This document shows positions 47,959 to 52,250 of a DNA stretch of 64,000 bases, piece by piece. A program made the position numbers and the translations under genes. Every line of letters starts with the position of its first letter. The first letter of the stretch is position 1. The notes under the pieces were generated by a model, which worked only from the letters and a program-made list of their open reading frames with translations, did not search any database and was not told the DNA's origin. This DNA is from Phytoactinopolyspora alkaliphila (lineage in GTDB: Bacteria > Actinomycetota > Actinomycetes > Jiangellales > Jiangellaceae), in assembly GCF_010550695.1 (NCBI RefSeq), contig NZ_JAAGOB010000003.1, forward strand, positions 248,001 through 312,000, written 5' to 3'.

Positions 47959-50316
47959 ATGAGCGCACCCATGGAACAGACCACGTTGCTGCCCCCTACG
48001 TCGTCGGCGTTGTTACCCGGAATGACGCACGTCAAGCGTGCCGACGAGGGAGCGGAAGAGCAGCCCGAGCGACGCCGGACCGACCCTGCGTCGATCGTCG
48101 ATGGGTTGAATCCGCAGCAGCGCGAAGCGGTCGTTCACGAGGGGTCCCCGCTGCTCATCGTCGCCGGCGCCGGGTCGGGCAAGACCCGGGTCCTCACCCG
48201 CCGCATCGCCTATTTGCTGGCCGAACGGAATGTCCACCCCGGCTCGATCCTGGCTATCACCTTCACCAACAAGGCCGCCGGAGAGATGAAGGAGCGGGTC
48301 ACCGAGCTGGTCGGGCGCCGGGCAAACATCATGTGGGTCTCCACCTTCCATTCGGCGTGCGTGCGTATCCTGCGCCGGGAGGCCAAGCGGTTCGGGTTCA
48401 CGTCGTCGTTCACCATCTACGATCAAGCCGATTCGCAACGGTTGATGACCATGGTCTGCCGGGATCTGGACCTGGACCCGCGGCGGTACCCACCGCGTTC
48501 GTTCAGCTACGCGGTCAGCAATTTCAAGAACGAGCTGATCGACCACGAGACGGCGGCCGCGCAGGCCAGCAACCACCACGAGCGCACCATCGCCGAGGCG
48601 TACGCGATGTATCAGCGGCGGCTGACCGACGCCAACGCGTTCGATTTCGACGATCTCATCATGACCACGGTCAACCTGTTCCAGGCGTTCCCTGACGTCG
48701 CCGAACTGTACCGTCGCCGGTTCCGCCACGTGCTGGTCGACGAGTACCAGGACACCAACCACGCCCAGTACGCCCTGATCCGGGAGCTGGTGGGCCGCAC
48801 CGAGGAAGACGCGGGTGACGCACCGTCGCTCGAGCCGGCCGAGCTGTGCGTCGTCGGTGACGCGGACCAGTCCATCTACGCGTTCCGTGGTGCCACCATC
48901 CGCAACATCGAGGAGTTCGAGAAGGACTATCCCGATGCGCGCGTGGTGATGCTGGAGCAGAACTATCGTTCCACTCAGACCATCCTGTCCGCCGCCAACG
49001 CGGTCATCTCCCGCAACGAGGGCCGCAAGCCGAAACGGCTCTGGAGCGAGAGCGGCGACGGCGAGAAGATCGTCGGATACGTCGCGGATGACGAGCACAG
49101 TGAGGCGCAGTTCGTCGCGGAGGAGATCGATCGCCTCAGCGACGAGGGCCTGGCCAAGGCTGGCGACGTCGCCATCTTCTACCGCACCAACGCTCAGTCC
49201 CGGGTCATGGAGGAGATCCTGATCCGGGTCGGACTGCCGTACCGGGTGGTCGGAGGTGTGCGGTTCTACGAGCGCAAGGAGATCAAGGACGCGCTGGCGT
49301 ATCTGCGCTTCCTGGTCAACCCGGAAGACACCGTCTCGCTGCGCCGCATCCTCAACGTTCCCAAGCGCGGAATCGGTGATCGTGCGGAGGCGATGGTCGA
49401 CGCGCTGGCGCAGCGGGAGCGGATCACCTTCTGGCAGGCTTTGCGCCGGGCCGCCGACGCACCTGGCATCGCCGCCCGCTCGGTCAACGCCATCGAGTCG
49501 TTCATCTCACTGACCGACGAGTTGCGCTCGCTGGCCGAGAATGACGCGGACCCGGTCACCGTCCTCGAAGCCGTACTGGAACGCACCGGCTACATGGCCG
49601 AGCTCGCCGGCTCCACCGACCCGCAGGACGAGACCCGGGTGGACAACCTGCGGGAGCTCGTGGCCGTCGCCGCAGAGTACGACGTCGGCCGGGCCGACGA
49701 GGAGGAAGGCGGCACACTCACCGGGTTCCTCGAGCAGGTCAGCCTGGTTGCCGACGCCGACCAGATTCCCGAGGGGGATGATCACGAGGGCGTCGTCACC
49801 CTGATGACCCTGCACACCGCCAAGGGCCTGGAGTTTCCTGTCGTGTTCCTCACCGGTATGGAAGACGGCGTCTTCCCGCATCAGCGCTCGCTGAGCGAGC
49901 CACGTGAGCTGGAGGAGGAGCGCCGGCTGGCCTACGTCGGCATCACGCGGGCCCGCGAGCGGCTGTACATCTCGAGGGCCACCGTGCGCAGCGCGTGGGG
50001 CGCACCCAGTCACAACCCGGCGTCCCGGTTCCTTGCCGAGGTTCCGGACGAGCTCGTCGACTGGCGGCGTACCGAGGCGGACCAGACCCGCTGGGCCTCC
50101 TCACCTGTGCGGCGAATGAGCGGAAGCCGGCAGCAGGCGCCCGCCCGGGCCGTGCCGATGCTGTCCGCCGGTGACCGGGTCAACCATGACGCCTTTGGGC
50201 TGGGGACCGTCGTCGCGACCTCCGGCGCCGGTGAGCAGGCACAAGCCACGGTGGACTTCGGGACCGACGGCCTGAAGACCCTCATGCTGAAATACGCCCC
50301 GGTTGAGAAGCTCTAG
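47959..50316 (+). CDS. pcrA: ATP-dependent DNA helicase PcrA/UvrD
   Basis: A 785-residue SF1A 3'-5' helicase for repair and replication-fork maintenance. Motif I is AGAGSGKTRVLTRRI, Ia AITFTNKAAGEMKERV, II VLVDEYQDTNHAQY, III VVGDADQSIYAFRGA, IV VVMLEQNYRSTQTIL, V LMTLHTAKGLEFPVVFLTGM, VI RRLAYVGITRARERL. The C-terminal 100 residues include a short PcrA-type tail (HDAFGLGTVVATSG). The guaA / PspC / LuxR / pcrA order is an actinobacterial signature. Confidence 0.96.
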   Translation: MSAPMEQTTLLPPTSSALLPGMTHVKRADEGAEEQPERRRTDPASIVDGLNPQQREAVVHEGSPLLIVAGAGSGKTRVLTRRIAYLLAERNVHPGSILAITFTNKAAGEMKERVTELVGRRANIMWVSTFHSACVRILRREAKRFGFTSSFTIYDQADSQRLMTMVCRDLDLDPRRYPPRSFSYAVSNFKNELIDHETAAAQASNHHERTIAEAYAMYQRRLTDANAFDFDDLIMTTVNLFQAFPDVAELYRRRFRHVLVDEYQDTNHAQYALIRELVGRTEEDAGDAPSLEPAELCVVGDADQSIYAFRGATIRNIEEFEKDYPDARVVMLEQNYRSTQTILSAANAVISRNEGRKPKRLWSESGDGEKIVGYVADDEHSEAQFVAEEIDRLSDEGLAKAGDVAIFYRTNAQSRVMEEILIRVGLPYRVVGGVRFYERKEIKDALAYLRFLVNPEDTVSLRRILNVPKRGIGDRAEAMVDALAQRERITFWQALRRAADAPGIAARSVNAIESFISLTDELRSLAENDADPVTVLEAVLERTGYMAELAGSTDPQDETRVDNLRELVAVAAEYDVGRADEEEGGTLTGFLEQVSLVADADQIPEGDDHEGVVTLMTLHTAKGLEFPVVFLTGMEDGVFPHQRSLSEPRELEEERRLAYVGITRARERLYISRATVRSAWGAPSHNPASRFLAEVPDELVDWRRTEADQTRWASSPVRRMSGSRQQAPARAVPMLSAGDRVNHDAFGLGTVVATSGAGEQAQATVDFGTDGLKTLMLKYAPVEKL

Positions 50317-50741
50317 CCTTCCGCGACCCGTGGTCTCTTAGCGCGCTTGCCGACCCCGCCACACCCCGCCACTTGGTCACCTGATCGTCGTTTTGTCGCC
50401 TGATCGTCTTCTCGTAGCGGATCAGGTGTGCAAACTCTGATGGAACGACGGGATATGCCAGCTGATCACGTCTCAAGATGTGGGACGCTGACGATCAGGT
50501 GACACAACCGCGCTGGTTGTGGCCGTTACGTCATCTGATCAACGACGGTCGGCAGTGACCAGTAGCGCTTGTGGGCGAGATCCCGTAGGGTCAGGCCAGG
50601 GTTTGATGTGACCCGCCGCCCGCGCCTTCACGGCATGGTGAACACATCGCTGCGCGGTCACCATGCATGCTGCGAGACACGGTGCCCCTTCAGAAACGCG
50701 GGCCCTGATCGACGATGGCACCGGAACACGCAGGTGAACTG
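50317..50741. other. gene-free spacer containing the left inverted-repeat arm
   Basis: Between pcrA and the glyoxalase-like gene there is no convincing reading frame. The main feature is the 168-bp arm at 50373-50540, listed separately; the remaining 200 nt probably hold the promoter of the glyoxalase-like gene. Confidence 0.5.
50373..50540 (+). repeat. 168-bp inverted repeat, left arm
   Basis: Reverse complement of 51309-51476 with 144 of 168 positions identical by hand count and no gaps; the first 35 and last 72 positions are almost perfect. The arm begins TCACCTGATCGTC (50377) and later has GACGATCAGGTGA (50490), so it is itself an imperfect hairpin with GATC-rich ends. Confidence 0.8.
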
Positions 50742-51275
50742 ATGGACGTGACGATCGCCGACGCCAAGCGCGCCGCTCGTATCCTCCGAGACCGCCTCAC
50801 ACACTCGGCCGTAGATCTGAGCCACAGTGCGGCCTTGGAGATCGTCGCTCGACAGCTCGGGTACCGAGATTGGAATACCGCCGTGGCTGCGCTGGACGAT
50901 CAGCAAGGCCCCGGGCTTGGTCACGCGGTCCCAGTACTTCGCATCTACGACGAGTCGCAGGCACGCGGGTTCTACGTCGACTATCTCGGCTTTCACGTCG
51001 AGTGGGAGCACCGATTCGAACCGGGATTACCCCTGTATGCACGGCTGCGGCGTGACGAGCTGGTCATCGACATGTCGGAGCATCACGGCGATGGGACACC
51101 GGGCTCGGTCCTGTGGGCGCCGATACGAGACCTCGCCGCGTTCCACCGGGAACTGGTCAACAGGGCGTACGCCAATCTGCGTCCTGGCATCGACCGGCAA
51201 GCTCCGGGCGGACCCACGATGGAGATCGTCGACCCGTTCTCCAACGTGATCAGATTTTGCGAAGCAACTGCCTGA
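50742..51275 (+). CDS. glyoxalase-superfamily protein
   Basis: A 177-residue protein. The first 55 residues are a helical region (VTIADAKRAARILRDRL, then LSHSAALEIVARQLGYRDW) of a kind that precedes the domain in the Glyoxalase_8 group. Residues 65-175 form a vicinal-oxygen-chelate domain (PVLRIYDESQARGFYVDYLG, DELVIDMSEHHGD, GPTMEIVDPFSNVIRF) that could bind a metal and a ligand or antibiotic. The ATG at 50742 has GGTGA upstream and is preferred over 50715. It is the only gene between the two 168-bp inverted repeats. Substrate unknown. Confidence 0.8.
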   Translation: MDVTIADAKRAARILRDRLTHSAVDLSHSAALEIVARQLGYRDWNTAVAALDDQQGPGLGHAVPVLRIYDESQARGFYVDYLGFHVEWEHRFEPGLPLYARLRRDELVIDMSEHHGDGTPGSVLWAPIRDLAAFHRELVNRAYANLRPGIDRQAPGGPTMEIVDPFSNVIRFCEATA

Positions 51276-51308
51276 TACCAGTGTGCTCCCGGGCCAGCCT
51301 TAGATGCG

Positions 51309-51476
51309 GATCAGATGACGTAATGGCCACAACCAACGCGGTTGTGTCACCTGATCGTCAGCGTCCCACATCTTGAGACGAGATCAGGTGACGTATCCGC
51401 GTCGTCGTTCAGGGTTTGCGCATCTGATCGCCCGCCGGAAAACGATCAGGCGACAAAACGACGATCAGGTGACCAA
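51309..51476 (-). repeat. 168-bp inverted repeat, right arm
   Basis: Partner of 50373-50540 in opposite orientation. Together they bracket a 768-nt segment with a single gene. No transposase and no clear target-site duplication were found beside either arm. Confidence 0.8.
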
Positions 51477-51485
51477 ACGGCAAGG

Positions 51486-52250
51486 TTAGACGCGGCGGAA
51501 GAGGAGGGCGCGCTTGACCTCTTGGATGGCTTTGGTGACCTCGATGCCTCGCGGGCACGCGTCGGTGCAGTTGAACGTGGTGCGGCAGCGCCACACGCCT
51601 TCCCGGTCGTTGAGGATCTCCAGCCGCTGCTCGGCGCCTTCGTCCCGCGAGTCGAAGATGAACCGGTGTGCTCCGACGATCGCCTGCGGGCCGAAGTACT
51701 GCCCGTCGGACCAGTACACGGGGCAGGACGTGGTGCACGCCGCGCACAGGATGCACTTGGTGGTGTCATCGAAGCGCTCGCGCTCCTCCGGCGACTGCCG
51801 ACGCTCCCGGGAAGGATCGTTGCCCGTGGTGACCAGGAACGGCATGATCGACTTGTAGGCCGAATAGAACGGCTCCATGTCGACGATCAGGTCCTTCATC
51901 ACCGCGAGACCCTTGATCGGCTCCACCACCACCGGCTTGTCCAGCGGGAGGTCTTTGAGCAGCGTCTTGCAGGCGAGCCGGTTGCGGCCATTGATCCGCA
52001 TCGCGTCCGAGCCGCAGATCCCGTGTGCGCAGGACCGGCGGAAGGTCAGCGAGCCGTCGATCTCCCACTTGATCTTGTGCAGCGCGTCGAGCACGCGGTC
52101 CGTGCCGTGCATGGTGAGCGTGTGCTCTTCCCAGCGTGGCTCGGTGTCCGACTCCGGGTTGAACCGGCGCAGCTTCAGCGTGACCTGGAACGACGGGATG
52201 GCACCGGCGGCGGGCGAGTCTTGGACAGGTGCCTCGGCAGTCAACGTCAT
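51486..52250 (-). CDS. sdhB: succinate dehydrogenase iron-sulfur subunit
   Basis: A 254-residue subunit that passes electrons from SdhA to the membrane anchor. The plant-type 2Fe-2S site (RRSCAHGICGSDAMRINGRN), the 4Fe-4S motif (CILCAACTTSCPVYW) and the 3Fe-4S motif (CRTTFNCTDACPRG) are all present. The ATG overlaps the sdhA stop (TGATG). Last gene of the sdhCDAB operon, ending just before the right 168-bp arm. Confidence 0.97.
   Translation of the reverse strand: MTLTAEAPVQDSPAAGAIPSFQVTLKLRRFNPESDTEPRWEEHTLTMHGTDRVLDALHKIKWEIDGSLTFRRSCAHGICGSDAMRINGRNRLACKTLLKDLPLDKPVVVEPIKGLAVMKDLIVDMEPFYSAYKSIMPFLVTTGNDPSRERRQSPEERERFDDTTKCILCAACTTSCPVYWSDGQYFGPQAIVGAHRFIFDSRDEGAEQRLEILNDREGVWRCRTTFNCTDACPRGIEVTKAIQEVKRALLFRRV

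Follow-up and report, generated by a model that had tools for sequence, protein, structure and literature searches.

The locus analysed here raises the question of what the two long inverted repeats between pcrA and sdhB are, and how the gene enclosed by them came to lie there. The window, which is the whole stretch of 64,000 nucleotides that was analysed, is located on contig 23 of a 5.5 Mb genome in 33 contigs. In it, a left arm (50373..50540, + strand) and a right arm (51309..51476, − strand) enclose a gene of the glyoxalase superfamily (50715..51275, +; 186 aa, with Pfam Glyoxalase_8 followed by Glyoxalase_7), flanked by pcrA on the left (47959..50316, +) and by sdhB on the right (51486..52250, −). 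The outer, tandem-motif end of the left arm lies toward the stop codon of pcrA, and the outer end of the right arm toward that of sdhB, about 10 bp off. The earlier note on this DNA had reported inverted arms with near-identical blocks around one glyoxalase-superfamily gene, with no transposase inside, and these observations were confirmed: 144 of 168 ungapped positions match, against a maximum of 65 in 2000 shuffles; identity is complete over the outer 35 positions and almost complete over the inner block; and the enclosed gene, the one judged for this purpose, is not a transposase. By using a repeat search, the pair could be extended to 187 nt at 83% identity.

Within each arm, six GTCACCTGATC-type motifs or near variants, here called A to F, follow one another in the pattern > > < > < > and at offsets of about 3, 22, 47, 84, 120 and 157. 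In the left arm, motif A (50376..50386, +) reads GTCACCTGATC and is followed after 19 bp by B (50395..50405, +), then by C (50420..50430, −), D (50457..50467, +), E (50493..50503, −) and, at the inner end, F (50530..50540, +). The right arm starts at its inner end with F (51309..51319, −), followed by E (51346..51356, +), D (51382..51392, −), C (51419..51429, +, with 3 mismatches), B (51444..51454, −) and A (51463..51473, −). The description of each arm as a hairpin was therefore roughly right: the predicted RNA folds beat shuffles (z −3.2 and −3.9), the arm itself being composed of six alternating motif copies.

The arm is one of dozens of copies in this genome and belongs to a Jiangellaceae repeat family. 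An arm search of the genome returned at least 46 matches (40 of 72 candidates scored), and a scan for the end pattern with up to 3 mismatches found 67 ends, in comparison with none for the reversed-pattern control. At least three of the four inner motifs are kept at near-fixed spacing in 52 of these ends, which form the alignment used below (A1), the other 15 being left out for want of inner motifs. Copies occur as solo arms, as double-ended elements of about 220 bp and as wide units of 1.1–1.5 kb with a gene inside, and two-arm forms of about 450–630 bp were found in the relative G004; taken together, double-ended units range from 217 to 1460 bp. In a motif scan of named genomes, from which the records of the window genome itself were perhaps absent, the only match was Haloactinopolyspora alba (Jiangellaceae), with 3 stretches. 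At five loci of Haloactinopolyspora / G011 (L102, L103, L225, L227 and L231), three tandem 19-bp terminal motifs were seen instead of two.

Most arm copies in the window genome are old. Identity between the two window arms is 0.89, and it does not exceed 0.73 between them and the arms of other wide units outside G004. In 7 of 14 units, as exemplified by the G004 nuclease unit (0.96), the two arms are more like each other than like any arm of another unit, and in the other 7, such as the C30 unit of the window genome (0.69 vs 0.74), this does not hold. The case raised in the earlier note, in which all relatives carry the same arms and no other copies exist, is not what was found, many other copies being present.

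The copies lie mostly behind genes. Among the 65 outer ends that lie outside the window, 53 are turned toward the 3′ terminus of a gene (median distance 15 bp), and for 47 of these the distance is between −15 and +40 bp; the corresponding values are 20/27 in G004 and 17/20 in G011, and the bias is weak in G014 (11/20). Convergent contexts make up 34/53 in the window genome, in comparison with 36/217 other neighbouring gene pairs in the fetched loci, and 8/18, 11/20 and 7/19 in G004, G011 and G014, respectively. These contexts were obtained with a composition-based ORF caller built by the authors, which favours high GC3 and missed both the glyoxalase gene and the C30 nuclease; the contexts are therefore approximations, and any comparison of GC3 with genes called in this way carries a bias. 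The GC3 values are 0.72 for the glyoxalase gene, 0.74 for the C30 nuclease, 0.87 for pcrA and 0.91 for sdhB, and those of the called window genes start at 0.74, but with the same preference of the caller for high GC3. In the 30 bp beyond the ends of 26 double-ended units, read in gene sense, C reaches 0.46 and G 0.25, a composition reminiscent of Rho-dependent terminator regions. Inverted resemblance just beyond double-ended units is weak, being reached by 28 of 1000 shuffles.

Among the helices tested alone, only that formed by motifs B and C (50391..50434, +, in the left arm) covaries across the 52 copies, a result reached by 0 of 500 shuffles, which is support rather than proof because related copies can beat such shuffles without structure. 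The D–E, E–F and C–D helices, tested in the same way, gave no covariation (336, 451 and 410 of 500 shuffles, respectively), and the combined pairings CD+EF and CF+DE were rejected, also for want of covariation. In the consensus computed from the 52 arms by RNAalifold, the B–C hairpin is absent, and 0 of the 14 pairs changed on both sides; mutual information over all alignment columns is weak. A search of positions 50200-51700 against Rfam returned 0 matches at E up to 1. In G001, a relative with one arm-search match, five junctions were examined, with both flanking genes matched in two of them; two of the five keep a decayed element that retains a paired B–C hairpin and in which, as judged by eye, both sides of the hairpin have changed, and the other three have no element. 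We take the B–C hairpin to have been conserved for its structure, probably at the RNA level, and the other motifs to be conserved, putative binding sites. On contig C5 of G001, at the orthologues of the L190 and L203 junctions, the arm is absent and a different long palindrome stands behind the same gene (by eye), which looks as if 3′ hairpins had been exchanged between species.

These properties are what would be expected if the arms were host 3′-end elements, terminators or mRNA-end hairpins, kept under selection, with the nuclease discussed below and the glyoxalase as mere passengers; the inverted pair would then simply reflect the convergence of pcrA and sdhB, with one copy belonging to each gene. 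The outer ends facing stop codons, the bias to convergent contexts, the covarying B–C hairpin and its survival in the otherwise decayed G001 junctions all argue for such a role. However, a scan for intrinsic terminators found none at the window arms, and the kept spacing of D, E and F, where the helices do not covary, is left unexplained. The same holds for the association with a nuclease family described in the following paragraphs, and as the origin of the arms this explanation is considered rather unlikely.

The C30 unit is 1.4 kb long and carries two arms and an open frame read as 329 aa. This protein has no match in Pfam and NCBIfam at 0.001. At the level of its family, all 22 members match PADLOC AbiEi models (E 0.01), 11 of the 22 match Pfam AbiEi_4 (E 0.1), and 13 of the 22 show a weak match to DUF559, with the first member below the curated cut-off; in addition, the family profile matches the solved endonuclease-like protein 3hrl with an E value of 0.0057. 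The acidic residues D259, E270 and D285 (numbering of the first row) are invariant in the 22 members and, from the alignment, are candidate catalytic residues. The protein is presumed to be an AbiEi-like/DUF559-like nuclease with a Vsr-type fold of the PD-(D/E)XK class.

A close clade of this nuclease (at least 59% identity) has one gene in each of 8 of the 22 family genomes; it is weakly supported in the tree (81/61), and the next clade well supported (97/98). Arms were found at all eight close-clade loci, on both sides of the gene in G000, G004, G011 and G014 and on one side in G010, G013, G015 and G018, one of these four lying at a contig end. By comparison, the arm array was found at none of 22 other paralogue loci that were fetched. 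Among the matches listed, and in genomes that are related to each other, the close nuclease is present in 8 of the 10 family genomes that have an arm match and in none of the remaining 12, the exceptions being G021, with at least 10 arm matches, and G001, with decayed arms, both of which are without a close nuclease. Host 3′-end elements leave the arms at eight of eight close-clade loci unexplained.

The junction of pcrA and sdhB is the usual place of this gene. Several relatives have no arms there, and in one of them pcrA and sdhB are 33 bp apart. The nuclease is at or beside the junction in 6 of the 8 close-clade genomes: it lies between sdhB and pcrA in G010, G015, G018, G011 and G014 (a broken copy in the last), with other genes intervening in four, and behind pcrA, about 10 kb from sdhB, in G004, where sdhB has its own two-arm element. 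In G013, the nuclease starts a contig beside its usual Jiangella neighbour gene and sdhB ends another, which suggests the same place across a contig break. The window genome alone has its close nuclease elsewhere, on C30, behind a DUF179-like gene (named by look) and with arms of its own; a search for a nuclease at the equivalent place gave no match in 21 of 21 relatives, G013 being cut by a contig end soon after the DUF179-like gene. At six Jiangella-group loci (L142, L144, L145, L146, L149 and L155), sdhB and pcrA are separated by a PadR-like gene (by look) and one other gene, and the junction is therefore a variable region.

At the window junction, both arms have been kept, and the glyoxalase gene stands where relatives have the nuclease. 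On the simplest reading, it appears that the nuclease relocated and the glyoxalase took its place, the order and the route of this exchange being presumed. By searching plasmids with the 1.1-kb unit, 8 matches were obtained, 5 of them without a listed gene beneath, the best covering a glyoxalase gene; no match was found in the plasmid search with the short double-ended element. On the Mycolicibacterium plasmid NZ_OY726396.1, a gene annotated as glyoxalase superfamily lies under a match that covers 62% of the 1.1-kb unit with a DNA identity of 67%; relatives of the window glyoxalase gene therefore occur on plasmids. The earlier suggestion that a gene had been captured by two copies of a palindromic repeat came close, to which can now be added that the palindromes form a dispersed family and that the middle gene varies among relatives.

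The other suggestion, a cargo-carrying MITE-like element, finds no support as a recently inserted 1.1-kb unit. MITEs have inverted arms and no coding capacity, and the arms described here resemble them in being inverted, the solo and short copies also being without coding capacity. A cargo MITE, or an ordinary long-inverted-repeat transposon with an unseen transposase and with the glyoxalase and the nuclease as alternative cargos, would account for outward-facing arms with variable middles and for double-ended units of 217 to 1460 bp. However, arms occur at the pcrA/sdhB region in three genera, and no arm array accompanies the glyoxalase homologues found in 7 further genomes of the family. Over the 26 double-ended units, no common target-site duplication was detected, the best mean identity being 0.38 against a shuffled median of 0.40, a test in which old duplications could have eroded. 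The orientation of the arms, in contrast to that of MITEs, is tied to gene ends, no transposase was found, the genome itself gave only weak matches to IS21 models, and one gene family stands beside the arms in 8 genomes. Taken together, this explanation is judged improbable. An IS21 origin of the ends was also rejected: no full arm array is present at the 30 IS21-model loci (L041-L070), L056 having three loose motifs within about 90 bp.

A very improbable explanation is that only regulation is involved, the palindromes being operators of the AbiEi-like protein and the dispersed copies its regulon, as could be argued from the nearly fixed motif spacing and from the AbiEi antitoxins of type IV toxin-antitoxin systems, which are reported to bind promoter inverted repeats (PMC7319586), but which does not fit repeats on both sides of nuclease genes or dispersed arms that lie mostly behind genes and not before them.

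The association of such nucleases with flanking repeats extends beyond the close clade. Of 118 genomes sampled from the class Actinomycetes, 65 contain a match at 1e-20, and within the family other nucleases of the same type are flanked on both sides by repeats of a different kind, often hairpins of 50–60 bp, which are also left unexplained by host 3′-end elements. A two-sided flank-repeat score of at least 20 was reached by 37 of 50 nuclease loci, in comparison with 2 of 200 control genes (1 of 16 in a smaller control set was above 16.5); the nuclease loci do not count as independent, and the class sample consists of best matches rather than random picks. The 50 comprise 22 loci from other families of the class, out of 30 returned, and 28 of 30 Jiangellaceae loci, L268 and L280 being left out as too short. 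The score was reached by 14/22 of the former and 23/28 of the latter (close clade 4/7, outside it 19/21), which gives 33/43 outside the close clade; the 13 loci below the cut comprise 8/22 of the class sample and 5/28 of the family.

Two palindromes were tested for dispersal by counting strand-hits, in which a palindrome scores about twice, and both are dispersed: for the first, G010 has 47 strand-hits and 15 of 22 family genomes have a match; for the second, G111 has 22 strand-hits and three other genomes have none. Across 32 loci with a repeat, the likeness of repeats follows that of proteins weakly (rho 0.17, 7/2000 permutations) and visibly only above 60% identity, and the repeats therefore change faster than the proteins. 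At L300 (G075), near-identical inverted DNA extends over several hundred bases on the two sides of a nuclease gene of this family. Further nuclease paralogues, at L288 and L289 (G000 and G001), have repeats built on CTGCAGGAC/GTCCTGCAG.

On balance, it is somewhat probable that the arms are REP-like extragenic palindromes with a dedicated AbiEi-like/DUF559-like nuclease partner, and that the window locus is its former home. The AbiEi-like half would probably read the motif array, a function suggested because AbiEi antitoxins are reported to bind inverted repeats (PMC7319586), and the nuclease half would cut at the array. Repair of the break, templated by other copies, could then spread the arms and, now and then, the whole unit, and the nuclease would in this way move the repeats. 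Since no common target duplication was seen over the 26 double-ended units, such break-and-copy repair between arms seems likelier than cut-and-paste. The spread would be REP/RAYT-like in its logic and homing-like in its mechanism, without target duplication. Behind stop codons, the B–C hairpin would be kept, probably as a 3′-end RNA hairpin. At the pcrA/sdhB junction, the nuclease would have left and the arms stayed, and the glyoxalase gene would have come to lie between the old arms.

Several known systems share parts of this organization. Vsr-like free-standing homing endonucleases may spread by break repair between homologous flanks, which differ from the flanks described here in that the latter are multi-copy palindromes and not one conserved target gene. 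The REP/REPIN palindromes and their RAYT partners form “REPtrons”, in which the palindromes lie behind genes or between convergent genes, the partner is flanked by inverted copies, copies are dispersed in partner-holding genomes, and some partners keep the same place in related species, as set out in PMC2817692, PMC3116915 and PMC3733652. The arms are likewise dispersed extragenic palindromes, mostly behind genes (more weakly in G014, 11/20), and the nuclease is at or beside pcrA/sdhB in 6 of its 8 genomes; inverted copies flank it on both sides at 4 of 8 loci and on one side at the other 4. The gene flanked by arms is, in contrast to RAYT, AbiEi-like/DUF559-like and not a Y1 HUH tyrosine transposase, and the arm is a six-motif array of 168 bp. 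CGTC-tagged REPs are described in PMC3733652, which also mentions MITEs, as palindromic, located behind genes and without a dedicated transposase; the motif end found here, ..GATCGTC, resembles them by description, although the motif array is larger. The word “Actinobacteria” does not occur in the main text of this source. With AbiEi antitoxins, the nuclease family shares its matches to AbiEi models, but the protein continues into a DUF559-like nuclease half. In a literature search covering titles and abstract openings, with no preprints and few subscription papers, no link of palindromes to DUF559 genes, or of dispersed palindromes to AbiEi genes, was found; AbiEi operators are known.

A broader reading, which we hold tentatively, is that Actinomycetes harbour widespread selfish or domesticated units, each formed by an AbiEi-DUF559 nuclease and a private palindrome family, which would cut and copy between homologous palindromes behind genes and whose central gene could be exchanged for cargo. 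Such units would constitute a REP system powered by a restriction-fold nuclease and not by an HUH transposase. If this is true, genes at present annotated as AbiEi or DUF559 would acquire a function, and the system would represent a second, independent way to spread short palindromes in bacterial genomes, with the unit of the window showing that such a site can swap its central gene. The nuclease family, which has its own two-sided repeats in most of the loci examined, offers a directly testable partner.
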